NCBI GenBank assembly: GCA_903859705.1
Contig: CAIONQ010000077.1
Location: forward strand, 62,001-126,000
Source of the DNA: an uncultured Chthonomonas sp.
GTDB taxonomy: Bacteria; Armatimonadota; Chthonomonadetes; Chthonomonadales; Chthonomonadaceae
Direction of reading: 5' to 3'
DNA length: 64,000 bases
The notes beneath the pieces were generated by a model. That model worked only from the letters and a program-made list of their open reading frames with translations, was not told the DNA's origin and did no database searches. This document shows, piece by piece, positions 17,118-31,326 of this stretch; within the stretch, counting starts at the first letter, position 1; the number at the start of each line of letters is the position of its first letter. The position numbers and the translations under genes are program-made.

Positions 17118-19277
17118 TCAGTTACCCCACCCCATGGCTACTCCAACGTGGTAGGCAACAAACGTGGCCAACCAGGCAAGTCCCGTCATATAACCAATCT
17201 GGAAAATGGGCCACTTCCATCCATTTGTTTCCCGCCGCACAACGGCCACGGTAGACATGCATTGCATAGCCAGTACGTAGTAAATCATGAGACAAACTGC
17301 AACAAGTGGCGAATAGACTTTTTTACCGGTAATTGGCGATACGTCGGACTTCATCTTTTCGCCAAGATCTACGCGGCCCTTGTCGTTGCCGTCCGCATCC
17401 TCAATGTTATACACGGTACCCATGCTCGAAACAAAGATCTCACGAGCAACAAATGAAGAGACAATTCCAATGCCCATCTTCCAATCAAAGCCAAGGGGCC
17501 TGATCGCTGGTTCGATGGCATGCCCTATATGCCCGACATAGGATTGTCCAATTGGGGTTCTCTCGTGGCCGTTTCGCGGGAATGTTGCCAGGCCCCACAA
17601 CACCATACTGGTTGTGAGGATAACCGTGCTTGCCCTTTTCACAAACAGTCCTGCTCGTTCCACCATTTGAATGCCGGCAGCCTTAAGGCCGGGCATTCTG
17701 TACGGCGGAAGTTCGAGCATGAATGTGGGTGATACTCCCTTTAGCAGCGTACGATGAAAGATACCTGCCATGCAAAAGGCCGCGATCATACCCAGAAAGT
17801 ACATAGAAACAAACGTGAGCCCGGGCAATGTAAGTACAGTTAGCCTGCCAATATGCAGCACAGGCCGGGCAGGCACAAACGCACTTGTCATAAGCAGGTA
17901 AACAGGGAGCCGAGCCGAGCAAGACATCAGGGGCGCAACAAGAATGGTAATCAGGCGAGCTTTGCGATCACCTATGGTTCTTGTGGCCATAATGCCGGGA
18001 ATAGCGCATGCAAAACTGGAAAGTAGCGGGATAAAGGATTTGCCATGTAGCCCTACTTTGCTCATAAGGCGGTCCATTAGGAACGCCGCACGCGCCATGT
18101 AACCTGTATCTTCTAATAGGCTTACAAAAAAGAAGAGCAGCAATATCTGTGGCAGAAATGAGAGCGTTGTTCCAACGCCACCAAGCACACCAGAGCGTAT
18201 TAGATCCTTAAGATCTCCATCGGCCATATGCCTGCCAAGGGCTTCACCAAGATCTTTGATCTTATCACGAATAAAATCAGCGGGTCCTTGCCCCAGCGTA
18301 AAAATAGTTTGAAACATTACCGCCATAAGGCCAAAAAATAGTATGTAGCCAAAGACGGGATGCATGACAACTCTATCAATTCGATCGTTAGCAGAAACCG
18401 GAGCTGCGTGCCGTTCAGAGTGTGGGCGCATTACGCCGTTACATACGTGGGCAATCCAATCGTAGCGCGCTGCAATTGCTGCTGCGGCAAAATCGATATC
18501 ATCCTGTGCCAGACGTTCCGCCGCGTCTTTAACTTGCTCCCTAACGCCGGACGACAAATGCTCCGTGGCATAAGCGGCTCGGTCGTCCTGCTGCATGAGC
18601 AGAGTGAGGGCCTCTACAAATGCAAAGCGCTGCTTAATGCCGTATTCGGCAACCAGTCTATTTGTGAGGGCATCTAAATCGGCCCGAATTTTCTCAGGAA
18701 CCAACCACGCTGGCTCAGGTGGCACAAGCACCTTGCTGCGCTCAAGCGCAGCCAACAGCTGCGGTATGCCAACCTTCTGCCCGGCAAGGACAACAATAAC
18801 AGGCACACCAATAGCTGTTTGAAGTGCTGTTGCGTCTACCTGAACTCCTGCCTGTGCGGCAGAGTCTGTCATTGTAAGCGCAATTACAGTTGGGATTCCA
18901 AGATCTAATAGTTGCCCGGTGAGGTAAAGATTGCGCTCCAGATTTGAGGCATCGACCACGTTCAGTACAACGTCTGGAACTTCGGTATCTGCGCGCAATC
19001 CCATCAGAACTTCACGCGCTATGGTTTCATCTGGAGAGTGTGGGGTGAGCGAATAAAGGCCAGGAAGATCTAGGAGGCGTGCAGTACCGCCATCTGGAAG
19101 GCGGCATCGCCCTTCCTTCTTTTCAACGGTTACACCGGGGTAGTTGCCAACCTTCTGCCTGAGGCCGGTTAGCGCATTGAAGAGGGTTGTTTTTCCAGAA
19201 TTTGGGTTGCCGACAATGGCAACGGCAACAAATGAGGAGGCACCGTTTGCGGCTGCATCCGAAGATGTTGAGGTCAT
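17118..19277 (-). CDS. feoB: Ferrous iron transport protein B
   Basis: A 719-residue inner-membrane Fe(II) transporter with a cytosolic G-domain. G1 is GNPNSGKTTLFNAL near residue 22, G2 GVTVEKKEG near 48 and G3 DLPGLYSL near 70. The G4 position reads TMTD instead of the usual NxxD. A helical GDI-like region follows, then about eight membrane segments with the two Gate motifs. Gate 1 is near ARAAFLMDRLMSKVGLHGKS, with CAIPGIMATR after it. Gate 2 is near SCSARLPVYLLM. The start overlaps feoA by 4 bp. It belongs to the dtxR-feoA-feoB-Cys-rich run and is expected to be iron-repressed. Confidence 0.95.
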   Translation of the reverse strand: MTSTSSDAAANGASSFVAVAIVGNPNSGKTTLFNALTGLRQKVGNYPGVTVEKKEGRCRLPDGGTARLLDLPGLYSLTPHSPDETIAREVLMGLRADTEVPDVVLNVVDASNLERNLYLTGQLLDLGIPTVIALTMTDSAAQAGVQVDATALQTAIGVPVIVVLAGQKVGIPQLLAALERSKVLVPPEPAWLVPEKIRADLDALTNRLVAEYGIKQRFAFVEALTLLMQQDDRAAYATEHLSSGVREQVKDAAERLAQDDIDFAAAAIAARYDWIAHVCNGVMRPHSERHAAPVSANDRIDRVVMHPVFGYILFFGLMAVMFQTIFTLGQGPADFIRDKIKDLGEALGRHMADGDLKDLIRSGVLGGVGTTLSFLPQILLLFFFVSLLEDTGYMARAAFLMDRLMSKVGLHGKSFIPLLSSFACAIPGIMATRTIGDRKARLITILVAPLMSCSARLPVYLLMTSAFVPARPVLHIGRLTVLTLPGLTFVSMYFLGMIAAFCMAGIFHRTLLKGVSPTFMLELPPYRMPGLKAAGIQMVERAGLFVKRASTVILTTSMVLWGLATFPRNGHERTPIGQSYVGHIGHAIEPAIRPLGFDWKMGIGIVSSFVAREIFVSSMGTVYNIEDADGNDKGRVDLGEKMKSDVSPITGKKVYSPLVAVCLMIYYVLAMQCMSTVAVVRRETNGWKWPIFQIGYMTGLAWLATFVAYHVGVAMGWGN

Positions 19278-19669
19278 TCCTGCTTATCCGGATCATCCAG
19301 CCACACAGCAGACGCCTCATCGCGACGTAAAGAAAGCTGGTAGCCGCGCACAAGAATATCCAGAGGGCCACCAAATGCAGCGGCACGAACCACTTTAACA
19401 TGTGTCCCGGGAGTGAGGCCCATTTCAAGTAAACGAAGACGGTCTCTCGAGCTTCCATTCAGATGGAAGATATAACCGCACTCACCTGGCTGTAAATCTG
19501 AAAGCGCGAGCCCAGATCTATACAATGAGCCATGATGGTGGTTAACGATACTGCCATCCGCAACCGCATCCAGGGCATTTTGCGCCGCCGCACCAAATTT
19601 GTGGCGACGCTTCGAAAACAAGCCTGGCTTGCAGGGTTCACTATCGCTCTGGTGTTTCTTATGTTGCAT
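19274..19669 (-). CDS. feoA: FeoA-domain protein
   Basis: About 131 residues from ATG 19669; a TTG at 19696 is an alternative, and neither has a strong ribosome site. The N-terminal 45 residues are basic and Cys-poor. Residues about 55-125 are a FeoA SH3-like domain: LALSDLQPGECGYIFHLNG, then RLRLLEMGLTPGTHVKVVR, AAFGGPLDILVRGYQLSLRRDEA. FeoA is a small cytosolic partner of FeoB. It overlaps feoB by 4 bp and lies about 70 bp after dtxR on the same strand, so it is probably read from the dtxR promoter. Confidence 0.9.
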   Translation of the reverse strand: MQHKKHQSDSEPCKPGLFSKRRHKFGAAAQNALDAVADGSIVNHHHGSLYRSGLALSDLQPGECGYIFHLNGSSRDRLRLLEMGLTPGTHVKVVRAAAFGGPLDILVRGYQLSLRRDEASAVWLDDPDKQE

Positions 19670-19737
19670 CGGTGTATATAACGCATCCAGCGGCAACTAC
19701 GTCCGCAATTGATGGGAGTTCTGACGGCTTTTCTGGC

Positions 19738-20496
19738 CTAAAGTTTCACAGCATCTGGGCCAGTGTAAACCCACACGCTGTTCGCAACATCTCTGCCGAT
19801 AGGAACCGCCTCGTTGAGGCTCTGAACAGAGAGTGTAAGAACGTCCCCAAAGGGTGTCCGGTTTTTCACACTAACCGAAGCCTCTGGTATCAGGCCAATT
19901 TCCAGTATATAGCTCAGAAACTCCGCACGTTCGTCAGTTATCCTCGCAACAACGCACTCATCTCCGGCCTGCAAGGCAGATAGGCGTACCGCATTGTCCA
20001 CTCTTGTGGCATCTACGGGGTTTCCATGTGGGCACGTTTTTGGATAGTGCATCGCCCGCGCAATTCTATCGGCTACATCCTCGCTGATGTAATGCTCCAG
20101 CTTGCAAGCAAGATCGTGCACATCATCCCATGGCAATTCAAGAAAATCAACTAGCAGCCGCTCCACAAGCCTGTGGCGCCGCAAGAGAGCTATTGAGATG
20201 CTAACACCACGATCAGTAAGTCGCACCCCCTGATAGGGCGTGTGTGTTACGAGATCCAACTCAGCAAGCCGTTTCAGCATGGTGGTTGCACTTGCTGGTG
20301 AAACGCCCATGTACTTGGCTACATCTCCCGAACTTACTGCTTCCAGCTCTTCTTGGAGCCGGTATATTCCCTCTGTATACTCTTCTATACTCTCGGTTAG
20401 CTCACCCGGGTCGCGATCCTTCGCCTGGCGCGGCCTGCACGGTGCCGGGCATCGAAGGTTTACCTCTTTTGTATCGCGCGCTTCTCGGATTGGCAT
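19738..20496 (-). CDS. DtxR/IdeR-family iron-dependent repressor with C-terminal FeoA-like domain
   Basis: A 252-residue regulator. The winged HTH covers about residues 33-95 (SGDVAKYMGVSPASATTMLKRL). The dimerisation and metal domain keeps DtxR-type ligands: RRHRLVERLL (His79/Glu83 equivalents), VHDLACKLEH (His98, Cys102, Glu105 and His106 equivalents), then CPHGNPV. A Cys at the DtxR-102 position, rather than the Glu of MntR, argues for Fe(II) sensing; the Met10 position is Glu here. Residues about 165-245 form an SH3/FeoA-like domain. ATG 20496 follows GGGGGA. A strong promoter and a palindrome lie just upstream. It likely represses its own feo operon when iron is plentiful. Confidence 0.9.
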   Translation of the reverse strand: MPIREARDTKEVNLRCPAPCRPRQAKDRDPGELTESIEEYTEGIYRLQEELEAVSSGDVAKYMGVSPASATTMLKRLAELDLVTHTPYQGVRLTDRGVSISIALLRRHRLVERLLVDFLELPWDDVHDLACKLEHYISEDVADRIARAMHYPKTCPHGNPVDATRVDNAVRLSALQAGDECVVARITDERAEFLSYILEIGLIPEASVSVKNRTPFGDVLTLSVQSLNEAVPIGRDVANSVWVYTGPDAVKL

Positions 20497-20590: not shown

Positions 20591-20682
20591 GAAGTACTCT
20601 CATTCAATATACGTAATCTGCCATAATTCATCAGCGCAACCACGCACCATTTTATTTGGTCCCGAAACGATGCTGTACATCT

Positions 20683-21369
20683 ATGACACTGGAAGCTGTA
20701 AATCTGTCTCTTGGATATGGCGATGGCGACTTAACTACTTTCGCAGTTCGTGAAGCAACGATGCGGATTGAGGGTCCAGGCTTCTTTGGCGTTATGGGGC
20801 CTTCTGGCTCCGGTAAAAGTTCACTTCTGTATATGTTATCCGGGCTCAAGAACCCAACGGCAGGATCTGTGCTTTTCAATGGCAAACATCTTGAAAATAT
20901 GGCAGATAAAGAGCGAGCCGCCCTTCGGCGGGAGCATTTCGGATTTGTATTTCAGCAGCCATTTTTACTAAGCTTTTTGACGGCACGGGAGAATATTGCC
21001 ATTGCAGCACGCCCGGGTGACAAGGCTGCCAACCGCAAAGCAGACGCTCTGTTAGAAGAATTGGGGCTAAGTCGCCTTGCCGATCGCACCCCTGTGCATC
21101 TCTCTGGCGGTGAACGCCAGCGCGTGGTTGTTGCGCGAGCTATGATTAATGAGCCATCCATTATCTTCGCAGATGAGCCCACTGCTGCTCTGGATCATCG
21201 CAACGGATTTGCTGTAATCGATCTGCTCAAGAGATATCGAGATCGTGGTACTGTGATTGTGGTTACACACGATCCGGCAATGATTGCTGGTGCCAACAAG
21301 ATATTTCATCTGGAAGATGGTGCAATTACCCATGTTGAAATTTCGGAAATTTCCGAGCCACCGGGTTAA
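20683..21369 (+). CDS. Orphan ABC transporter ATP-binding protein (LolD/MacB/FtsE class)
   Basis: About 228 residues from ATG 20683. Walker A GPSGSGKSS lies near residue 40, a Q-loop FVFQQPFLLS near 92, signature LSGGERQRVVVARAM near 137, Walker B IIFADEPTAALD and H-loop VVTHD. Overall it resembles LolD, MacB and FtsE-type ATPases, which serve FtsX-like permeases in lipoprotein release, efflux or cell-wall hydrolase control. No FtsX-like permease is adjacent; the next gene is a thiol peroxidase. There is no convincing ribosome site. The gene diverges from the iron regulator and shares its palindrome-containing upstream region, so iron-linked control is possible. Confidence 0.85.
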   Translation: MTLEAVNLSLGYGDGDLTTFAVREATMRIEGPGFFGVMGPSGSGKSSLLYMLSGLKNPTAGSVLFNGKHLENMADKERAALRREHFGFVFQQPFLLSFLTARENIAIAARPGDKAANRKADALLEELGLSRLADRTPVHLSGGERQRVVVARAMINEPSIIFADEPTAALDHRNGFAVIDLLKRYRDRGTVIVVTHDPAMIAGANKIFHLEDGAITHVEISEISEPPG

Positions 21370-21489
21370 CGTGCCATATGCAGAGGAAACACTATTAGGC
21401 GCTCATGCGTAGATAACACGGATTGGTCCAGATTTAGCATCCAGCCGTAACCCTGTACAATCGCATACAAAGTAGGAGACTTATACAGA

Positions 21490-22002
21490 ATGTCCAGAAC
21501 TGTTCTTTTCAAGGGCAACCCCGTGGCCGTAACTGGCCCAGAGCTTAAAGCGGGCGAAAAAGCACCAGATTTTAAGGTGCAGGCCAGCGGTGCTGCAGGC
21601 CTCGGCGATGTTACCCTCGCAGATTTTGTTGGCAAAACGGTAATCCTTTCCGTTGTTCCTTCCGTAGATACCGGTGTGTGCGCTCTGCAAACAAAGAAGT
21701 TCAATGAGCGAGCGGCGGCACTTCCAGAGAATGTGGTAGTGCTTACGGTTAGCACCGATCTGCCGTTTGCGCAGGGCCGTTTCTGCGGTGCTGAAGGCAT
21801 CGACAAACTTCGCACCGTTTCCGATCATCGCGACGCCAGCTTTGGTGCATCCTACGGTGTTCTGATTACAGAAGGTCCGCTCACCCGGTGCCTTGCACGC
21901 TCCACTTTTGTCATCGGCCCCGATGGTAATCTGAAGTATGTTGAGTACGTACCTGAAATCACAACCGAACCAGACTATGATGCCGTTCTGGCAGCTGTGT
22001 AA
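21490..22002 (+). CDS. tpx: Thiol peroxidase (atypical 2-Cys peroxiredoxin)
   Basis: A 170-residue peroxiredoxin that reduces peroxides with thioredoxin. The peroxidatic Cys64 sits in SVDTGVCALQT; the resolving Cys99 is in LPFAQGRFCGAEG, both in the positions that define the Tpx subfamily. The N-terminal KGNPVAVTGPELKAGEKAPDF is also typical, and length is normal. AGGAGA precedes ATG 21490. A weak promoter is possible (TTTAGC, 17 nt, TACAAT). The next gene starts inside its 3' end, so the protease may be co-translated. Confidence 0.96.
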   Translation: MSRTVLFKGNPVAVTGPELKAGEKAPDFKVQASGAAGLGDVTLADFVGKTVILSVVPSVDTGVCALQTKKFNERAAALPENVVVLTVSTDLPFAQGRFCGAEGIDKLRTVSDHRDASFGASYGVLITEGPLTRCLARSTFVIGPDGNLKYVEYVPEITTEPDYDAVLAAV

Positions 22003-23323
22003 ACATCGCTTCCCAGTAGTTGTGCTTATCACCTTTGCCCTGCTTCTGTTGCTGCCATGTTTTACGGCAGCACAGAAGCGGGGCAAGGTTACTTCACCGC
22101 TGCAAGTAACCGCCTCAACTTCACTTCCGCATACAACATCCGCCATTTCAGAGTTCATGCCACATGTATCAGCTAAGGCTATTGCGTACCAGCGCACTTC
22201 GCGTTGGCTTGCGATTACTGGCAAGATCTGGTACTTGTTAGGCTTGTGGCTATTCCTTGCTTCAGGTGTAGCCGCAAAGATGCAATCCAGCGTCCGATGG
22301 ACCCTGCATGGTAGGTCGGATCTGGTAGTTCGCTCGCTCCCCCCCTCACTATTTCAGATTGTTGCCTACATCACTGCTTTTGCGATAACTATGTGGATAT
22401 GGCAACTGCCGTTTGATCTCGGTTTCATCTGGTTAGAAAAGCACTACGGATTTGGGACACAGAGCATATTGGGTTATGTATGGGATAGCGTTCGGGGCAT
22501 AATTTTTCAGGCACCCGCAGCCCTGCTATACAGAGCAGGTTACGAAATGCTCTACCGCAACCCTTTACGGTGGTGGATGCCAACGTGGGGATTAGGCTCT
22601 GCTGGCCTCCTGTTCCTATTCGTAATTCAGCCTATGTGGCTGGCTCCTATGTTTAACCACTATTCCTCGCTGCCTGCATCCCCAATAAGGCAGGCTATTA
22701 GCGAGCTGGCGAGAAATGCAGGAATTGCTCACGCAGAAATTCTGGTAGAGAACACCAGCATACGAAGCAAGCACGTAAATGCGTATGTAACTGGCATTGG
22801 CCCCTCCGCGCGCATAGTTATCAACGATACCACGCTCGCCGCATTGCCACAAGATCAAATCCTCGCTATGGTTGGGCACGAAATTGGGCATTACAAAGGG
22901 CGGCACCCGATGTTACTGTTGGGAAGTTCCATTGTTGGCCTTGGAATGTTTCTGTGGTGCCTGGCGCTAGTAATTGATTCTGATTGGTTCAATTATAAAT
23001 GGGGTATTCACTCAAATTATGATCTTATCATGCTCCCCGCAATCAGCCTTGCCGCGGCTATATTTTTGTTCGTGCAGGCTCCTATCGAAAGCGGTATCTC
23101 TAGAAACTTAGAACGCCGCGCGGATGATTATGGATTGCACCTTGTAAATGAGCCAGAAGCAACCGCAAGGCTTATGGCAGGTTTCGCAGAGCGAGACCTG
23201 GCCGACCCAGATCCACCGATGATCTTACAATTCTGGTATGGTTCCCATCCTACGCTGCACGAACGAATTACCACTGCGCTGGAGTACCGCGATAGACATA
23301 TTAACGCAGGGCAATCTCGTTGA
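21977..23323 (+). CDS. M48 family membrane metallopeptidase (Ste24/CAAX-protease-like)
   Basis: About 448 residues. The N-terminus has a hydrophobic segment ending at CFTAAQ, probably a signal or anchor, and several further membrane helices follow, as in Ste24-type M48 enzymes. The zinc motif is HEIGHYKGRH near residue 295, and the third ligand is in the downstream NLERRADDYG block. The catalytic architecture is complete, so it is predicted to be an active zinc protease, perhaps acting on membrane or envelope proteins. The start is ambiguous: ATG 21977 overlaps tpx by 26 bp, and no good ribosome site is visible. Confidence 0.88.
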   Translation: MMPFWQLCKHRFPVVVLITFALLLLLPCFTAAQKRGKVTSPLQVTASTSLPHTTSAISEFMPHVSAKAIAYQRTSRWLAITGKIWYLLGLWLFLASGVAAKMQSSVRWTLHGRSDLVVRSLPPSLFQIVAYITAFAITMWIWQLPFDLGFIWLEKHYGFGTQSILGYVWDSVRGIIFQAPAALLYRAGYEMLYRNPLRWWMPTWGLGSAGLLFLFVIQPMWLAPMFNHYSSLPASPIRQAISELARNAGIAHAEILVENTSIRSKHVNAYVTGIGPSARIVINDTTLAALPQDQILAMVGHEIGHYKGRHPMLLLGSSIVGLGMFLWCLALVIDSDWFNYKWGIHSNYDLIMLPAISLAAAIFLFVQAPIESGISRNLERRADDYGLHLVNEPEATARLMAGFAERDLADPDPPMILQFWYGSHPTLHERITTALEYRDRHINAGQSR

Positions 23324-23396: not shown

Positions 23397-24557
23397 ATGA
23401 GTTTAAGAGCGGCATCTCGGGTTTTAAAGGACCGCAGAACAAAAAACCTGACGCGGCGATTAAAACCTGGCGATATCGCTTTGATTCATCATGCCGATTT
23501 GGATACTACCGCTGCCAGAGCCCTGATCGAAAGTAATATTTCCGCCGTTGTAAATGCTTCTCGAAGTATCTCTGGCCGATATCCCAATCGTGGCCCACTA
23601 CTCCTGCTGGAAGCGGGCATCGTTCAGATAGATGATCTGGGTGAGGATGCTTTTGAATCCATTCCTGACGGGGCACTGGTTGCGCTCGATCCCGCGCGAG
23701 GCACTATCACGCTGCCAGATGGCGCGGTAATTCAGGGGTCAACGCTTTCATCAGAACTTATTCAACAACAGATGAAGGATGCGCATGCCAACCTTAGTAC
23801 GGAGCTGGATCATTTTGCGCGGAATACTCTGGAATATCTGGACAATGAAAAAGGACTGCTATTCGACCCGGTAGAAGTGCCAGGCCTAAGAACAAAATTT
23901 GCTGGAAGACACGTTATGATAGTGGTGAGGGGAGAAGGTTACAAAGATGACCTGGCCCTCTTGCACGACTATCTGCGCGATACCCGCCCTATCCTACTGG
24001 CGGTAGATGGTGGCGCAGACGCGCTTATAGAAGCCAGGCTAACGCCAGATGTGATCCTCGGTGATATGGATAGTGTTTCGGACGATGCCTTGCGCTGTGG
24101 TGCCGAGCTGATTGTGCATGGTTATCATGGATCCAAGGCAAGTGGTGGTAAGAGTGGCGCTCCTGGCATGGAGCGTATCAAAGAGCTGGGATTGGAAGCG
24201 CAGGTTCTTTACTCGCCGGGAACGAGCGAAGACGTGGCGATGCTCCTGGCCGATGAATTAGAAGCCACCCTCATTGTTGCCGTAGGTACTCACTTTTCAT
24301 TAGAAGAGTTTCTGGACAAAGGGCGTAAAGGAATGGCAAGTACATTTCTAACGCGGCTACGTATAGGATCTAAGCTGGTGGATGCAAAAGGGATAGCTCG
24401 GCTCTCACGTGGGCAACGTCCACGCTTGCGTGAGCTTGCACTTATCGTGTTTGCAGCCTCTACTCCCATCATCGCTGTAACGGTGCTTTCGCCCGTTGGG
24501 CAGAACCTTCTTGAGATTATCCGCGTCTGGATGCATGTGCATCTTCATATCGGCTAA
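23397..24557 (+). CDS. SteA-like protein with thiamine-pyrophosphokinase-like fold
   Basis: A 386-residue protein. Residues about 20-160 are a beta-rich domain beginning LTRRLKPGDIALIHHADLD. Residues about 180-330 resemble the TPK catalytic fold, with VDGGADALIEARLTPDVILGDMDS split as VDGGAD, TPDVILGD and MDSVSDD. The C-terminus is a membrane helix near 355-375 followed by a short tail. This is the SteA arrangement; in Corynebacterineae SteA is a septal protein acting with SteB in cell separation. The pairing with a SteB/MctB-like gene directly downstream strengthens the call. A true pyrophosphokinase activity is unlikely. It heads a five-gene plus-strand cluster. Confidence 0.82.
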   Translation: MSLRAASRVLKDRRTKNLTRRLKPGDIALIHHADLDTTAARALIESNISAVVNASRSISGRYPNRGPLLLLEAGIVQIDDLGEDAFESIPDGALVALDPARGTITLPDGAVIQGSTLSSELIQQQMKDAHANLSTELDHFARNTLEYLDNEKGLLFDPVEVPGLRTKFAGRHVMIVVRGEGYKDDLALLHDYLRDTRPILLAVDGGADALIEARLTPDVILGDMDSVSDDALRCGAELIVHGYHGSKASGGKSGAPGMERIKELGLEAQVLYSPGTSEDVAMLLADELEATLIVAVGTHFSLEEFLDKGRKGMASTFLTRLRIGSKLVDAKGIARLSRGQRPRLRELALIVFAASTPIIAVTVLSPVGQNLLEIIRVWMHVHLHIG

Positions 24558-24640
24558 TTGGGGCGGCACCCGCACGCCTGAGGGTATACTTGGCAGGTAT
24601 AGAATGCAGCGGCGCACGTGCCAATGCAGGGGTAAACCAC

Positions 24641-25519
24641 GTGGGGTATGGGTTTAAATATCACGTAGCCACTATCGCGGCTATATTTTTTGCTCTCACC
24701 GTTGGCCTTGTAGTTGGCAGCCTTTTTGTTTCGCCACGAATCACAGTTCAGCAAACACGCCAGATTGAACGACTGCGCAACGATGTTAATCGCGATATTG
24801 TGATAACACGTACAGAGAAAGATCGCGACGAAAAGGCCCTTTCAGCGTTTGTACCAGCAGCCCTTCACGGCAAACTTGCTGGTGTATCGGCGGCAATAGT
24901 ACAAACGGGAGATTATCCTGAAGCGGCTGCAAGCATTCGAGAAGCGCTTACACAGGGCGATGCTCATGTGCTTTCTACTACGGCAACGCTCCATTTTATA
25001 GATCGTCCAGATGGGTTGTTGCTACCTGATCTTCAGTCCAGATCTCAAGTGCAGGCCGGTTTTCCCGCCACCAGGGAAGAGCTTGCAGACCGTATCGCCA
25101 GACTGATCGTGCGCGGTGATAATCCGGCCGATAGTGGCATTGCTCAACTTGAGCGAGAGGGTATATTGCGATCTGAACAAGGTAGCGATTACAACAGTGG
25201 GGCTAGGCTTGTAGTGATTGCTGCTGGAAGTCGATCAGAGGCAAACGAGAGAGTTTCGCGCGTTGATGCACTGCTGATAAAAGCCCTGCAAAAATACGGT
25301 GCCACCGTGATGATGGCCGAAGCTACCGATGCTCACTCTTCTGACGTAGATGCATACAAACGCCTCGCAATTTCTGTTTCTACAATCGATGATATCGATA
25401 CCGATATTGGCCGGGGCTCGCTGGTGTTTGCCTATGGCAGCGACCCGGGCAGCTATGGTATAAAACCCACCGCCGCCGACCTATTTCCCCCGGAGCTCAG
25501 CCGCATCGGAGCCCACTAA
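24641..25519 (+). CDS. SteB/MctB-like membrane-anchored envelope protein (copper transporter family)
   Basis: About 293 residues. One N-terminal membrane helix (FKYHVATIAAIFFALTVGLVVGSLF) is followed by a coiled coil (QTRQIERLRNDVNRDI) and an extracytoplasmic alpha/beta domain. The YHVxxxxAxFxALxxGxxxG start is a signature of the MctB/SteB family, annotated as copper transporter because of Mycobacterium MctB. GTG 24641 is preferred: AGGGG lies 8 nt upstream and the helix then begins at once, as in relatives; a TTG at 24590 is an alternative. In Corynebacterineae SteB partners SteA, which is encoded just upstream here. A septal or envelope role is therefore more likely than copper export. Confidence 0.8.
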   Translation: MGYGFKYHVATIAAIFFALTVGLVVGSLFVSPRITVQQTRQIERLRNDVNRDIVITRTEKDRDEKALSAFVPAALHGKLAGVSAAIVQTGDYPEAAASIREALTQGDAHVLSTTATLHFIDRPDGLLLPDLQSRSQVQAGFPATREELADRIARLIVRGDNPADSGIAQLEREGILRSEQGSDYNSGARLVVIAAGSRSEANERVSRVDALLIKALQKYGATVMMAEATDAHSSDVDAYKRLAISVSTIDDIDTDIGRGSLVFAYGSDPGSYGIKPTAADLFPPELSRIGAH

Positions 25520-25541
25520 ACACAGATCAAAGCTTGTTCCT

Positions 25542-26252
25542 ATGACAACAGTATCGGTATTGATCCCAGCATTTAATGAAAAAGAGCGGATTGCTGTGAC
25601 CATCGCAGCCATTCGCAAAATTCCACACATCGCTGAAATTATAGTCATCGATGATGGCTCTTCAGACGGCACTGCGGCAGCCGCGGAAGCCGCAGGTGCC
25701 GACGTTGCACTGATCATTCCACATGGCGGCAAAGGCGCAGCGCTAAACGCTGGCCTTAATGTAGCCAGAGGCGACGTGTTGTTGCTGCTGGATGCAGATC
25801 TGGGTGATACCGCAACCCAGGCGTCCAAGTTGCTGGAGCCTGTGCGAACCGGAGTTGCTCATATGACCATAGCAACCTTTCCGGTAATACCGGGAAAGGG
25901 CGGTGGTATTGGCCTTGCAGTAAGAACAGCCAGGAAGGGTATTGAAAACCTTACCGGCCGAACAATGCATGCTCCCCTTTCGGGCCAGCGTGCAGTAACA
26001 CGCACAGTTCTGGATGAAGTTGGTGGTTTTTCTGAAGGATGGGGAGTTGAGATTGGCCTAACAGTAAAGGCCCTGTGGCTCGATTTTACAGTTATGGAGG
26101 TTCCGACCACCATGACTCACAGAGTAACCGGGCGGAGCTTTGCAGCAATTCGGCACCGACTTTCACAGTATGTTGCTGCCCAACGATTGCTGTCTCATCT
26201 TCGATCTATCCGTGAAGAGTTCATTGCTAACCACGGCCAGAAGACTGCGTAA
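25542..26252 (+). CDS. Family 2 glycosyltransferase
   Basis: A 236-residue GT-A-fold enzyme. The nucleotide-sugar site is seen as VSVLIPAFNEKERI and IIVIDDGSSDGT, the DxD-type metal site as LLDADLGD near residue 85, and an acidic acceptor region EGWGVEIGLTVKA near 175 corresponds to the ED motif. There is no membrane segment. The closest general type is GT2 enzymes making dolichyl/polyprenyl-phosphate sugars or glucosyl-3-phosphoglycerate; the donor cannot be read from sequence. It follows the SteB-like gene by 22 bp and precedes a MraY-like transferase, so a role in a cell-surface glycan on a polyprenyl carrier is likely. Confidence 0.9.
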   Translation: MTTVSVLIPAFNEKERIAVTIAAIRKIPHIAEIIVIDDGSSDGTAAAAEAAGADVALIIPHGGKGAALNAGLNVARGDVLLLLDADLGDTATQASKLLEPVRTGVAHMTIATFPVIPGKGGGIGLAVRTARKGIENLTGRTMHAPLSGQRAVTRTVLDEVGGFSEGWGVEIGLTVKALWLDFTVMEVPTTMTHRVTGRSFAAIRHRLSQYVAAQRLLSHLRSIREEFIANHGQKTA

Positions 26253-26283
26253 CTGAAGGCAAACCTGTTTCTCGAGAGCTTTA

Positions 26284-27153
26284 ATGTCTGATATCCGTTA
26301 CATCGCTAGCGTCACATTCTTTTCAGTTGTGGCTGTACCTGCAGCAACATTAGCGGTATTGCGTTTGTGCCACTGCACAGAAAAGAACTTCCGGGGTGAA
26401 ACCATACCCGTTAGCTTCGGTATATCGCTCCTCATCTCAACTGAGTTACTGTTATCGGTTGTCATTCGTAACACACCAGTATCCACCAAAATGTTGTTAC
26501 TCTTTGTGAGTACTGCCGCTGTGTTCGGCCTGTTGGGATTGCTGGATGATAGGTTAGGCGATAAGGCAATTAAAGGACTAAAGGGGCACTTTGCTGCCGC
26601 CTTGCGGGGCAAGATAACTACCGGGTTTTTGAAGGCCATAGGGGGTCTCGCCTGGTCTGTTTACTGTGCCTGGCGGGTTTCGCCACATCTGATCGGAGTG
26701 GTTATACTCAATGGGCTGCTAATTGCGCTTTGTGCCAATCTGTTCAATTTACTGGATTTACGTCCTGGGCGTTCTTCTGCGGTATTCCTGCTATCTGCAG
26801 GCATGTTGCTCGGCATTGCAGGCAACTCGTTATCCATACTGCCAGCAACTGCTGGACTGGCAACTGTAGTGGTTTCTGCCATACCGTGCTGGCTACTGGA
26901 TTCCAGAGCTAAGGTTATGCTGGGCGACACGGGCAGCAATCTGCTTGGCGGATCTCTGGGCTTAGCAATAGCCATGCTGCATAATACAGCGCTATCCGTT
27001 GGAGTACTGGCAATTCTCATTTTCGTTCATGTAATTGCAGAACGCAAATCACTAACAGCAGTAATCGCAGCAAGCCCAATTCTGTGTGCGATGGACAAGC
27101 TTACCGGTATACGTGGTGACGTGCAATCATCCATGCCTAAAAAACAACAGTGA
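26284..27153 (+). CDS. MraY/WecA-like polyprenyl-phosphate phosphoglycosyltransferase homologue
   Basis: A 289-residue polytopic membrane protein. The three motifs of the family are recognisable: GLLDDRLGD near residue 86 (the paired Asp), NLFNLLDLRPG near 156 (the N-x2-N-x2-D-x3-G loop), and VMLGDTGSN near 212. The HHHFE block of MraY is absent; HVIAERKS occupies that place. MraY/WecA enzymes transfer a sugar-1-phosphate from a nucleotide sugar to polyprenyl phosphate. This is therefore a divergent member and not the peptidoglycan MraY itself. It lies 31 bp after the GT2 gene and within the SteA/SteB cluster. Confidence 0.83.
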   Translation: MSDIRYIASVTFFSVVAVPAATLAVLRLCHCTEKNFRGETIPVSFGISLLISTELLLSVVIRNTPVSTKMLLLFVSTAAVFGLLGLLDDRLGDKAIKGLKGHFAAALRGKITTGFLKAIGGLAWSVYCAWRVSPHLIGVVILNGLLIALCANLFNLLDLRPGRSSAVFLLSAGMLLGIAGNSLSILPATAGLATVVVSAIPCWLLDSRAKVMLGDTGSNLLGGSLGLAIAMLHNTALSVGVLAILIFVHVIAERKSLTAVIAASPILCAMDKLTGIRGDVQSSMPKKQQ

Positions 27154-27163
27154 GGAGAATCAA

Positions 27164-27622
27164 TTGATACGTCTGGCTACACAAAGTGACGCAGAAACAC
27201 TTTTGGGACTTATTGATGCGCTGGCAGATTATGAGCAGTTAGATAGGCCCACTGCAGATGCCAAAGAGCGGTTAACACTGCATGGGTGGCCCACAAACGG
27301 CTCTGCGCCACTTTACACTGCCTGGTTATCGATAGACACAGAGAGCGGTGCTGCAGTTGGGTACGCCATTACCTTCCTCACCTATTCCACATTTCTTGCA
27401 AAACCAACTATGTATCTGGAAGACCTGTTTGTGCTGCCAGCTTTTAGGAGGTCGGGCCATGGCAAGGAACTAATTAAAAAAGTAGTCGACTGCGCACATG
27501 AAACCGGTTGTGGCCGTGTTGAATGGGTAGTACTCGATTGGAACACCTCTGCACAGGAGTTCTATAAGGGAATGGGAGCAAATCACCTTACAGAGTGGCT
27601 CCACTATCGGCTCACAATATAA
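27164..27622 (+). CDS. GNAT family N-acetyltransferase
   Basis: About 152 residues. Acetyl-CoA binding is indicated by LEDLFVLPAFRRSGHGKELIKKV split as LEDLFV, RRSGHGKEL, with the R-x2-G-x-G/A loop near residue 95, and the C-terminal VLDWNTSAQEFYKGMGA motif. The overall plan is that of diamine (spermidine/spermine-type) acetyltransferases. I take TTG 27164 as start because GAGGAG ends 6 nt before it; the ATG at 27086 would overlap the previous gene by 68 bp. It is the last gene of the plus-strand cluster, converging on ppk2. The substrate is unknown. Confidence 0.9.
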   Translation: MIRLATQSDAETLLGLIDALADYEQLDRPTADAKERLTLHGWPTNGSAPLYTAWLSIDTESGAAVGYAITFLTYSTFLAKPTMYLEDLFVLPAFRRSGHGKELIKKVVDCAHETGCGRVEWVVLDWNTSAQEFYKGMGANHLTEWLHYRLTI

Positions 27623-27625
27623 GTG

Positions 27626-28459
27626 TCAGGTGGAAGTTTCGCCCCGCATTGCACGAAGTTGCTTTTTCTGAGCTTCTCCAAGAGAGGTAAGGCGTTGCAT
27701 CCATTCCTGCTTATGCGGCCGCAACGCCTCCACTACCGCTTCAGCAAGCACCAGATTGCGGAACCATTTGTGATTCGCTGGCACAATGGTCCACGGTGCT
27801 ACAGCCGTGCCACAATGGTTGATTGCATCCTCATAAGCCAGCTGATAATCCGCCCACAACTCCCTCTCTTTCCAATCTGCGGGGCTTAATTTCCACGCCT
27901 TCGTAGGATCTTTCTCGCGCTCAAGAAGCCGGCGCTCCTGCTCATCTTTTGATATGTGCAGGAAGAACTTCAGTATGAGCGTGTTATTTTGGGCCAGCAT
28001 TTTTTCAAAGTCATTTATACTGTCAAAACGACTTTTCCAAGTTGATTCTTCAATGAGTTTGTGTACTCTGACCACAAGTACATCCTCATAATGGCTACGA
28101 TTGAATATTGTAATTTCACCTCTAGCAGGTGACTCAGCATGAACACGCCAGAGAAAGTCGTGAGCGGCCTCACGTGGTGTCGGCACTTTAAACGAAGCGA
28201 CTCTGCAGTTTTGGGCGTTTAGAACCCCCATAACATGCTGAATAGAGCCATCTTTACCAGAGGTATCCATCCCTTGCAGAACTATAAGCACAGCGGTTTG
28301 TTGAGCAGCATACAAGAGCTCTTGAAGTTCGGCAAGTTCTGTTAATAGTTCCGCTGTGCGAGCAGCAGCAGCTTTCGGCGTTAACTCACTCACACTTCCC
28401 GGTTCAATATCACTAAGCCGTATGTGATGCGTGCCATCCACCTTAACAATGTGCTTCAC
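27626..28459 (-). CDS. ppk2: Polyphosphate kinase 2 family phosphotransferase
   Basis: A 277-residue single-domain PPK2. Walker A is LQGMDTSGKDG near residue 63, and the lid/Walker B region is FNRSHYEDVLVVRVH near 120. The DPTKAWKLSPADW and PWTIVPANHKWFRN blocks are typical. It transfers phosphate between polyphosphate and nucleotides. The sequence around the lid and the length resemble class III (AMP/ADP-using) members, but class cannot be fixed by eye. It ends 3 bp from the GNAT gene (convergent) and lies 18 bp after a HAD phosphatase gene on the same strand. Confidence 0.94.
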   Translation of the reverse strand: MKHIVKVDGTHHIRLSDIEPGSVSELTPKAAAARTAELLTELAELQELLYAAQQTAVLIVLQGMDTSGKDGSIQHVMGVLNAQNCRVASFKVPTPREAAHDFLWRVHAESPARGEITIFNRSHYEDVLVVRVHKLIEESTWKSRFDSINDFEKMLAQNNTLILKFFLHISKDEQERRLLEREKDPTKAWKLSPADWKERELWADYQLAYEDAINHCGTAVAPWTIVPANHKWFRNLVLAEAVVEALRPHKQEWMQRLTSLGEAQKKQLRAMRGETST

Positions 28460-28477
28460 AGCATTTCTCCCAGGAGC

Positions 28478-29302
28478 CTACAGGCTCAGCCCACATACTT
28501 CTACCAGCAGCCTGCCTACTCCATCGTCAGTATTTGACCATATTACTCTGTCTGCCGCTTTTTTGAGGTCTTCCCGTGCATTTGCGACTGCAAGTCCGAG
28601 CCCCGCCCACTCCACCATGGGAATATCATTATAACTGTCTCCAATTGCAATGCACTCTGCCTGCTCAATTCCAAAATGCTCAGCAACAAGACTAAGTGCG
28701 CTGCCCTTATTGGCTGCAAGTGGCATAAACTCAAGGTACTCAGCTGTGGTCTTCGTTACGTAGAGCGTGTTGGCAAATTTTGGCTTGAACTCCGCCACAA
28801 GTCTATTTGTGTACTCTTCGGTGTTTACAATCAGCAACTTGGTAGGCTCAATTCCCTGCATTGCAGTTAAAAGGTTTGGGCAAATAGTATATGGTGAGCC
28901 GGTTCGGTGGGTGTAGAGCTGAAGCCAATCTGTATCGTGCTCTGAATATATCAGGCCGTTATGGTAGAAATTCAACTGTAGGTCATTGTTCTGGCAGAAC
29001 TGCATAACAACCTGTGCAGCATCGGCAGGAACCCTGTGGTGTAACCATTCATCGCCAGTGGCAGGATCTTTAACGAGGGCGCCGTTGTACGATACAATTG
29101 GGCCTGTTAGCCCGAGTTGCAGCGCATACTTCAATGTTGACTCGTGCATCCTTCCGGATGCAATTACAACCTGCATACCTGCCGCAGATGCAGCCTTGAT
29201 GGCCCGAATATTAAACTCTGAAATTATGTGCTCTGGACCAAGTAGGGTTTCATCCAGGTCGATGGCGCACAGGCGGTAAGCAAGGTTCGTAGAGAGTGAC
29301 AT
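28478..29302 (-). CDS. HAD-superfamily (Cof-type) hydrolase
   Basis: A 274-residue phosphatase. Motif I is LCAIDLDETLL with the nucleophile Asp near residue 13; the later motifs are VIASGR near 46 (II), a Lys in PLAANKGSAL near 205 (III), and IGDSYNDIPM near 228 (IV). The C2-type cap between motifs II and III places it in the Cof/YkrA subfamily, which usually hydrolyses sugar phosphates or flavin-related substrates. ATG 29302 has AGGA upstream. It is preceded by the HEAT protein gene by 23 bp and followed by ppk2, so these three form an operon. Confidence 0.92.
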   Translation of the reverse strand: MSLSTNLAYRLCAIDLDETLLGPEHIISEFNIRAIKAASAAGMQVVIASGRMHESTLKYALQLGLTGPIVSYNGALVKDPATGDEWLHHRVPADAAQVVMQFCQNNDLQLNFYHNGLIYSEHDTDWLQLYTHRTGSPYTICPNLLTAMQGIEPTKLLIVNTEEYTNRLVAEFKPKFANTLYVTKTTAEYLEFMPLAANKGSALSLVAEHFGIEQAECIAIGDSYNDIPMVEWAGLGLAVANAREDLKKAADRVIWSNTDDGVGRLLVEVCGLSL

Positions 29303-29325
29303 ATCATGTTCCTGATATCGGCAAA

Positions 29326-31326
29326 TCAAGTCGCCGTTTCTTGATCCGGGCCCGGTGGCAGTTGAACCGGCCGGAGTAAAATATCTGTGGGTTGGCATCC
29401 TACATCGGATGCTGGGCGCAGCAGAGAGTCGTGCTGGCCATTTGGCGAAGAACCTCTCAGCAGGGTCATCGTATCTGGATTAGCCTTCTTAATCCGCGAA
29501 ATAGCGTCCACAGCAGCAGCAGCCACTGCTGCACTCTTTTTATCTGCGGCCTGTTGTAGCACAGGTATCGCCCGGGTTTCCCCAAGCTTGCCCAGGGATA
29601 TTGCCGTGGTGATTAGTACGCCATCAGCCAGACTATCCATACCACCAATTAGAAACTCAAACGTGCCCGGCGCACGCAAATCTACGAGTGTTTGCCCTGC
29701 CGAAACCCGAACAATTTGTAGCAGTTCATCACTGGAACTAACTGAAACGCGGGCTAACCTGCCTGTTGAAGCAGCGCGATAAGTTAAGAATGCTGCCGTG
29801 TGGATCTGATCCATTGCACATGTGGCACGTTCTGCATCAAGCCTGCCAAGCGCTTTTAATGCGGCGGCGGCGGATGCAGCTATGTCTCTGGTTGAGACGG
29901 CCGTTTGCGGGCTGGTAAGCAATTCCAGGCAGTTCTGCAATAGGCGCGCCAGCAGCATTGGAACGCGCTCATCCTCCAGAATCCAATCCTCCGCTCTTCG
30001 TGCAGAATCTGTTGGAACGTACTTTTCGGCCGTTTCCCGTGAGAAGCGTGTAATCCAGTTGGTTACATGCTGTACCGCATCATTGACGGCGGCTCCCATA
30101 TCCTGAGCATTAGCAAAGGTTTGTTGCAAGTTTTTGAACAGGCTCTCGCTCGGGCGCCCAGCTTCAAGAACCATGCAGAATGCAGCACCATAGGGTTCTC
30201 CCCAGGCACGCAATGCCACGCTGGCGGCCGAACGTGGGGCTGTTTCCGCACACGATAATAGTCCATCGAGAGTGCTAACAACACGCGTCCTCATTTCGCC
30301 AGAAGGAGCGTCCGGTGTGTCTGTATCTTCAGAGTCTGTAAGTGGTGCGGCACTCGCCAGTAGATCTGCAGCAGCAGATAGCACAACGGACGAAGGTTTC
30401 CGATCCACGAGAGCGCACATGGTCTCAACTACCAAAAAATTTGGATGCCCAATCGATCGTGTTGCTGAGATCGCTTCACACACGGTTGCATCGGTACTGC
30501 CATCCGGCTGATATGCATCAATGACACTTACAAGCAGTTGCGGCAGATCTGGCGGGCGGAGCAGCGTTAAAGCTCGAATAGCCCCCCTGGACAAGTAACC
30601 TGCTTTATACGCTGCAGAGATGCGGTTTAAGGCTACAACTGGCCCCGCAAGGGTCATTACAGCATCTGCGGCTCTATCTCGAACATCGTAATCGTTGTCT
30701 CGTAATAGTCCAGCAATCGTATCAAGCGCTTTTTCGCCGCCAAGCCTTTCAAGAGCACTAATGGCAGTTATGCGAATATCAGGCAATTGGTTATTAGATA
30801 TCTGAACCAGCCCGGGAACGGCAGACGGCCCCAACCCCTCACACAATCTGCAGAAAAGATTGGGTGCCTTATCGGCACCATCTGCCATTACCGGAATGAC
30901 GTTGGCATCTCGCAACTCAATCAGCGTTGCCACTGTATGGCTCGCAGGGATACTGTTATCCGATAAACCGGGTATTCTACGCCACGCGTCTGCTAGAGCC
31001 ATGGAGGCATCAGGCACTCCAATTTGCACAAATGCAAAATTGAGTTCAGTATGAAGGTTCTTTTCAGGCGCCCTATACTGCAATGTATCAATCAGAAACG
31101 GTAAAGCTTCCTTCTGTTTAAGCCAGTGAAGAACCACTGCGCTGCGTATCTGAGCCTCAGGCTTATCCTTTTCTGCCATATAACGGCGCAGATGGGGAAT
31201 GCTCACTTCACCAAGATCGCGCAGGGCATACATAGGCGCAAGCGGGTTGGCTTTAGCGTCCGCAAGGCGAGACGCATTCCAGAGCGCCTTAAAGTGGCGA
31301 GCAAGTTTTTCCTGGTAAAAGGCCAT
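29326..31326 (-). CDS. HEAT-repeat protein
   Basis: About 666 residues of repeated helix pairs with no catalytic motif. Typical units include VPGLVQISNNQLPDIRITAI and the adjoining LERLGGEKALDTIAGLL, DNDYDVRDRAADAVMTL near residue 230, and, at the end, AIPVLQQAADKKSAAVAAAA. Such alpha-solenoids serve as protein-binding scaffolds; similar PBS-lyase-type HEAT proteins are common in Armatimonadota and Planctomycetota. There is no signal peptide. I take ATG 31326, where family-like sequence begins; GTG 31380 is an alternative. An extended -10 promoter lies upstream. It is first in the HEAT-HAD-ppk2 operon. Confidence 0.85.
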   Translation of the reverse strand: MAFYQEKLARHFKALWNASRLADAKANPLAPMYALRDLGEVSIPHLRRYMAEKDKPEAQIRSAVVLHWLKQKEALPFLIDTLQYRAPEKNLHTELNFAFVQIGVPDASMALADAWRRIPGLSDNSIPASHTVATLIELRDANVIPVMADGADKAPNLFCRLCEGLGPSAVPGLVQISNNQLPDIRITAISALERLGGEKALDTIAGLLRDNDYDVRDRAADAVMTLAGPVVALNRISAAYKAGYLSRGAIRALTLLRPPDLPQLLVSVIDAYQPDGSTDATVCEAISATRSIGHPNFLVVETMCALVDRKPSSVVLSAAADLLASAAPLTDSEDTDTPDAPSGEMRTRVVSTLDGLLSCAETAPRSAASVALRAWGEPYGAAFCMVLEAGRPSESLFKNLQQTFANAQDMGAAVNDAVQHVTNWITRFSRETAEKYVPTDSARRAEDWILEDERVPMLLARLLQNCLELLTSPQTAVSTRDIAASAAAALKALGRLDAERATCAMDQIHTAAFLTYRAASTGRLARVSVSSSDELLQIVRVSAGQTLVDLRAPGTFEFLIGGMDSLADGVLITTAISLGKLGETRAIPVLQQAADKKSAAVAAAAVDAISRIKKANPDTMTLLRGSSPNGQHDSLLRPASDVGCQPTDILLRPVQLPPGPDQETAT

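Follow-up and report, generated by a model that had tools for sequence, protein, structure and literature searches.

SteA-SteB in a conserved module with a divergent polyprenyl-phosphate phosphoglycosyltransferase: a possible link between a lipid-linked glycan step and cell separation

The SteA-SteB locus

The stretch of DNA analysed here (64,000 nucleotides, hereafter the window) comes from the 6.24 Mb draft genome of an uncultured Chthonomonas sp. (assembly GCA_903859705.1, contig CAIONQ010000077.1, positions 62,001 to 126,000), and carries homologues of the cell-separation proteins SteA and SteB next to genes for two putative glycan enzymes. On the + strand, SteA (386 amino acids, 23397..24557) is followed by SteB/MctB (about 309 amino acids, 24590..25519), a soluble GT-A glycosyltransferase (GT; 236 amino acids, 25542..26252) and a polytopic phosphoglycosyltransferase (PGT) of the PNPT fold (289 amino acids, 26284..27153), with gaps of 32, 22 and 31 bases between successive genes. 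We refer to the last of these as the Ste-linked PGT.

SteA falls squarely within the NF040608 equivalog (445 bits against a cut-off of 150, over residues 8-381), its C-terminal membrane segment corresponds to PF12555 (SteA-like_C; 28.9 bits, cut-off 26.4), and it matches the SteA of Mycobacterium tuberculosis (9hmy) with an E-value of 4e-66. The closest named relatives, judged by SteA, are Armatimonadota, for example Chthonomonas and Capsulimonas metagenome-assembled genomes. Three motifs are intact in the window protein, VDGGAD (203-208), GDMDS (222-226) and GTSED (275-279), and across 56 Armatimonadota, 25 clostridial and 72 actinobacterial SteA sequences the corresponding VDGGAD, GD[MFL]DS and [GA]TSED are nearly invariant, with few exceptions. 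On this evidence SteA looks like a cytoplasmic, membrane-anchored protein with the fold of thiamine pyrophosphokinase (TPK) and an intact pyrophosphokinase-like Mg-nucleotide site. That it might simply be the cell's TPK, an outcome that the earlier note on this DNA had named as fatal to its proposal, can be rejected, because a genuine, full-length TPK is encoded elsewhere in the genome (111.2 bits against TIGR01378, cut-off 76.4), while SteA reaches only 38.7 to 39.5 bits and covers model positions 7-57 of 206. No Pfam match to the C-terminal thiamine-binding domain of TPK was found in SteA.

The assignment of SteB rests on PF11382, which it matches over its full length (E 3.8e-38, profile positions 4-306 of 306), together with the alignment of homologues; a single-sequence search of the PDB gave no real match. 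An N-terminal hydrophobic segment precedes an extracytoplasmic core, and the true start may lie a few codons after the listed TTG. The third gene product had been described in the earlier note as a soluble GT2 enzyme. The match to PF00535 (E 2e-23) bears this out, with the correction that in structure it lies closest to glucosyl-3-phosphoglycerate synthase (GpgS): phmmer finds GpgS in the PDB with an E-value of 6e-13, and the AlphaFold2 model (predicted local distance difference test, pLDDT, 94.2) is nearest to GpgS/MpgS-type structures (Z 24.7 to 3ckj, 31% identity), followed by dolichyl-phosphate mannose synthase (5mlz, Z 21.5) and ArnC (Z 20.3). Although the fold matches, the protein scores only 83.9 bits against the GpgS equivalog NF010496 (cut-off 262) and so falls outside it.

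A divergent member of the MraY/WecA superfamily

The Ste-linked PGT belongs to the PNPT family by its score against PF00953 (31.5 bits, cut-off 27), and its AlphaFold2 model, built with 29 homologues (pLDDT 93.5), finds DPAGT1 (Z 23.4) and MraY (Z 22.6) as best structural matches, the next hit being an unrelated fold at Z 6.1. The window protein displays D88-D89, N155-x2-D158-LRPGR, M212-x-G214-D215-x-G-x-N219 and E253-x2-S256. Among 29 sequences from three phyla, there is no variation at N155, D158, D206, G214-D215 or E253, and hardly any at D88/D89. The earlier note had pointed out that the HHHFE block is missing, and alignment confirms it: neither the HHHFE loop of MraY nor the HIHH loop of WecA is present, and a conserved E-x2-S near the end of the protein stands in its place. 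Accordingly the score against the MraY model TIGR00445 is low (16.2 bits, cut-off 192), and no NCBIfam equivalog cut-off is reached. A profile of the subfamily separates it cleanly, with near-complete members at 126 bits or more and canonical MraY/WecA proteins below 50 bits; the genome holds two other PF00953 members, both with canonical scores. Because the modelled fold matches active enzymes and the catalytic Asp motifs are retained, the Ste-linked PGT most likely represents a separate, catalytically active subfamily of transferases.

Conservation of the module across three phyla

Neighbouring genes were traced with targeted profiles grown from the window proteins, clustering of all open reading frames (ORFs) being swamped by antisense ORFs in the high-GC genomes. 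Most Armatimonadota loci show the order SteA-SteB-GT2-PGT, which recurs in Clostridia (loci L094, L101, L106 and L120; a further clostridial locus, L059, is without SteB), and most actinobacterial loci have the order SteA-SteB-PGT. Its conservation in three phyla puts this gene order far beyond chance, and the possibility that the cluster exists in this genome alone, which would have told against the earlier note, does not hold.

In some loci of each phylum the block sits directly behind recN: in Armatimonadota (L049, L104), Peptostreptococcus (L106) and Actinobacteria (L058, L105, L126). Upstream of recN-linked blocks one often finds nadK, and in Clostridia and Actinobacteria tlyA as well. 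In L120 and L101 two genes separate recN from SteA; one is spoIVB (by Pfam, in L120) and the other, from its position and a published note on Clostridia, is probably spo0A. Clostridial loci add a DUF3866 gene after the PGT (L094:11516-12646), as does Clostridioides difficile with CDR20291_1057. Actinobacterial loci often add a MurJ-family protein and sometimes GT4 and TerC. Two of these MurJ-like neighbours (L105:10827-12569 and L182:6694-9231) score 201.1 and 171.6 bits against TIGR01695, short of the 235.55 required of canonical MurJ, and this protein is possibly a dedicated flippase for the PGT product. At L182 the order is SteA-SteB-MurJ-X-PGT-pyrG-NUDIX. There, the MurJ-like gene is separated from the PGT by an 829-codon ORF (L182:3462-5948) that matches nothing in Pfam or NCBIfam and runs into the beginning of the PGT match. 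On the M. tuberculosis map, pyrG directly follows steB, which is what one would expect had the intervening genes been lost. Taken as a whole, the module is apparently ancient and vertically inherited.

Two emphases of the earlier note need revision in light of this distribution. Occurrence in a diderm is no special feature, the module being equally strong in the largely monoderm Clostridia and Actinobacteria; nor is SteAB chiefly a system of the Corynebacterineae, given that 106 of 159 Bacillota_A genomes have a SteA that scores above cut-off.

SteA and the Ste-linked PGT also occur together. Counting genomes with both, SteA only, PGT only and neither, we find 46/2/2/11 in Armatimonadota (Fisher p 1.3e-8, uncorrected for relatedness), 54/0/0/26 in Bacillota_A and 38/3/0/38 in Actinomycetota. 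In all 54 of the Bacillota_A genomes with both, the two genes share a contig and lie within about 3.5 kb of one another. In Armatimonadota, 14 of the 46 genomes with both do not have them within 6 kb, and co-occurrence without proximity argues against mere linkage; within one genus, G056 carries SteA and PGT on different contigs and G043 has neither. Two of the four Armatimonadota exceptions (G058, G010) are incomplete genomes, and in G028 SteA has probably been cut off, as SteB starts only 172 bases from a contig end.

Decay of the SteA site where the PGT has been lost

In each of the three actinobacterial genomes with SteA but without a PGT, the SteA motifs are broken. Across the 80 genomes of the order to which they belong, SteA is found in 78 and the PGT in 34. 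Among those SteA sequences that were read, every PGT-bearing genome (13/13) has GDMDS, and not one of the PGT-less genomes (0/30) keeps the serine of GDxDS; 25 of these 30 have also lost a motif acidic residue, in many different ways. The effect extends beyond the motifs. In 152 SteA sequences from outside the PGT-less clade (the presence of PGT having been checked for most of these, though not all), 74 columns show at least 97% conservation; 28 of them stay at or above 90% inside the clade, and K16, S226, H241, Y243 and K308 fall from near 100% outside to 0-23% inside. This clade includes Corynebacterium and Mycobacterium, M. tuberculosis among the latter, and in its sampled members the Ste-linked PGT was not found. 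By alignment, the motif equivalents read GDPDQ/GSATD in M. tuberculosis and GNPTG in Corynebacterium glutamicum. SteA thus looks enzyme-like where the PGT persists and decayed where the PGT has been lost.

Other genes around the module

The earlier note had counted five ORFs in tandem on one strand with small gaps, and all are present on the + strand. The fifth, a GNAT acetyltransferase ORF (27086..27622, +; PF00583, E 1.3e-16), is nonetheless a lineage-specific neighbour outside the conserved module: its occurrence after the PGT is confined to the window and a handful of loci from the same family (L033, L036 and L038), and we reject the gene as a module member. Its start is probably later than 27086, since the mechanically assigned GTG there overlaps the end of the PGT gene. 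Upstream, on the + strand at 20656-23323, lie genes for an ABC-transporter ATPase, a thiol-peroxidase-like redoxin and an M48 protease with a CAAX-protease N-terminal domain. The protease was likewise rejected, for it stands directly 5' of SteA only in the window and in the same-genus locus L032; at L052, pieces of M48 lie 2-3 kb downstream. Further upstream, at 17118-20496 on the - strand, a FeoB-like GTPase transporter, a FeoA-like protein and a DtxR/MntR-type regulator form a tandem iron-uptake block. On the far side of the module, and convergent with it, a PPK2 polyphosphate kinase and a HAD hydrolase are encoded at 27626-29398 on the - strand.

Published work on SteAB and on the C. difficile cluster

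SteAB has been assigned a septal role in Corynebacteriales, and in M. tuberculosis it forms a transmembrane complex that regulates RipA. The authors of the latter work described SteAB as largely restricted to Actinobacteria, with some Clostridia carrying it next to spo0A. C. glutamicum SteA (CgSteA) is stabilised by GDP and UDP, and its authors propose that it senses the status of the wall. An earlier study described Cg1603 as having an ATP site "very different" from that of TPK, and a preprint on mycobacterial SteA leaves enzymatic activity open. On the function and activity of SteA, published papers disagree (PMC12977500, PMC12338722, PMC9897464). In C. difficile, the cluster CDR20291_1053-1057, annotated as pyrophosphokinase, exported protein, GT2, GT and DUF3866, is essential, and its knockdown by CRISPR interference (CRISPRi) gives chaining, short, swollen and phase-bright cells, with the same phenotype for all targeted genes and a list of phenotypes that overlaps that of the PS-II wall-polymer genes (PMC12548448). 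Our search of the literature turned up no paper linking SteA to a glycosyltransferase or to MurJ in the sense proposed below.

A proposed glycan step coupled to cell separation

The earlier note had suggested a polyprenyl-linked glycan pathway physically linked to division-site proteins. The physical link stands, and co-occurrence and synteny in three phyla now reinforce it; the parts of the suggestion that involved the GNAT enzyme and the diderm envelope fall away. On the strength of homology, synteny, co-occurrence, fold and selective site decay in our own analysis, and of the septal role of SteAB in Corynebacteriales and the essentiality and chaining in C. difficile from published work, our best reading, which we put at even odds, is that in the ancestral module SteA acts as an enzyme and works with the PGT in a single polyprenyl-linked glycan step to which cell separation is coupled.

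The module would comprise the SteA-SteB transmembrane complex, governing the separation of daughter cells, and a specialised polyprenyl-phosphate sugar-1-phosphate transferase, with the GpgS-like glycosyltransferase as a further part in Bacillota and Armatimonadota. The PGT would use a nucleotide sugar to charge undecaprenyl phosphate with sugar-1-phosphate, and the GT would add or supply a further sugar. SteA may carry out, or gate, a nucleotide-dependent step of the same pathway, and through SteB wall cleavage on the other side of the membrane could be coupled to that state, such that separation would proceed only once the glycan step had been served. In the PGT-less actinobacterial clade, SteA would have lost its active site and survived as a non-catalytic scaffold or regulator. 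The substrate, catalysis by SteA and the direction of coupling are the conjectural elements of this scheme. Its fullest form, that in most carriers SteA is an active, nucleotide-dependent, membrane-anchored TPK-fold enzyme of a new kind, working with a new PGT subfamily on a lipid-linked glycan that has so far escaped notice and that separation requires, and that the SteA of Mycobacterium and Corynebacterium, the subject of the published studies we found, is a pseudoenzyme that has outlived the pathway, we advance tentatively, at slightly less than even expectation.

Several observations weigh against this proposal. In a tree built without the motif columns, PGT loss needs one or two events; it was probably a single event in Actinobacteria, and at most two, so that the correlation between SteA and PGT does not amount to many independent tests. 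A test of independent pairs, comparing PGT loss with site decay, was not significant, the independent losses being too few, and site decay, while broad within the clade, rests on few events. The same clade has changed much else in its envelope. SteA with intact motifs and no PGT is found in two Armatimonadota genomes (G004, G058), possibly through assembly gaps, and a GT partner was not found in actinobacterial loci. CgSteA comes from the decayed branch and is nevertheless stabilised by GDP and UDP; the motif may therefore be dispensable for binding. Because CRISPRi may have polar effects, the C. difficile phenotype speaks for the operon and not for each gene, and other genes of wall synthesis and elongation give phenotypes similar to those of the cluster (PMC12548448).

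The nucleotide binding of CgSteA, with the wall-status sensing that its authors propose, lends itself to a different account, in which SteA is a sensor and not an enzyme: it would read UDP, GDP or a nucleotide sugar as a reflection of flux through the PGT and GT, and relay this via SteB to a periplasmic hydrolase, with separation awaiting glycan supply. The transmembrane-coupled complex established in M. tuberculosis and the co-inheritance of SteA with a PGT described as using nucleotide sugars would both fit. The residues that have decayed, however (K16, R178, S226, H241, Y243, K308 and the Asp and Ser of GDxDS), look more like parts of a catalytic centre than of a simple binding site, and mycobacterial SteA still functions in separation without them; we regard the sensor as unlikely, if still a serious contender. 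That SteA, SteB and the glycan genes have no joint function, and lie side by side in a conserved housekeeping locus (nadK-recN-steA-steB...-pyrG) for historical reasons alone, would account for the unrelated conserved genes adjoining the block, and chance can retain synteny within phyla. It is largely contradicted already by the Armatimonadota genomes in which co-occurrence holds at a distance, by the joint absence of both genes from 26 Bacillota_A, 38 Actinomycetota and 11 Armatimonadota genomes, by the match between site decay and PGT loss and by the single phenotype of the C. difficile genes, and we think it improbable. Least probable of all, in our judgement, is that the PGT is itself a pseudoenzyme and scaffold for SteAB. 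The missing His loops and the scores below every equivalog cut-off are what such a protein might show; against this, its fold is that of active enzymes, and the near-universal retention of its catalytic-motif residues is the reverse of the loss that would be expected.

SteAB is a current drug-target topic in tuberculosis. The comparisons made here would account for the disagreement over SteA, in that the crystallised proteins come from the one clade where the site has decayed and the PGT is missing; organisms that bear the PGT are the right place to look for SteA activity. They also offer a testable hypothesis for an essential C. difficile cluster without assigned function, and widen the range of SteAB well past the published restriction. 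Conservation of the SteA active site, its decay where the PGT was lost and the connection to the C. difficile cluster all go beyond the earlier note.

Comparison with known systems

With MraY, WecA, TagO and DPAGT1 the Ste-linked PGT shares its fold (Z 19-23), the DD and N..D motifs and the MxGDxGxN loop; it differs in having only about 15% identity to them, the signature NLxDLRPGRA and no His loop. The window GT has the GT-A fold in common with GpgS (GT81) and dolichyl-phosphate mannose synthase, though it lies far under the GpgS equivalog cut-off. SteA shares the nucleotide/Mg motifs VDGGAD and GDxDS with TPK and with the MptE-like 6-hydroxymethylpterin diphosphokinase, and departs from TPK in its sub-threshold score, in matching no thiamine-binding domain and in residing in a genome with a separate TPK.

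The C. difficile cluster has the same order and annotations as the clostridial loci L094 and L106, with genes of similar size, from which we infer orthology; relative to the window it adds DUF3866. The SteAB pairs of Corynebacterium and Mycobacterium (Cg1603-Cg1604; Rv1697-Rv1698, also known as TapA-MctB) have homologous SteA and SteB, encoded by adjacent genes and with the same topology as in the window. There the SteA site has decayed, whereas here it is intact and the PGT lies next door.

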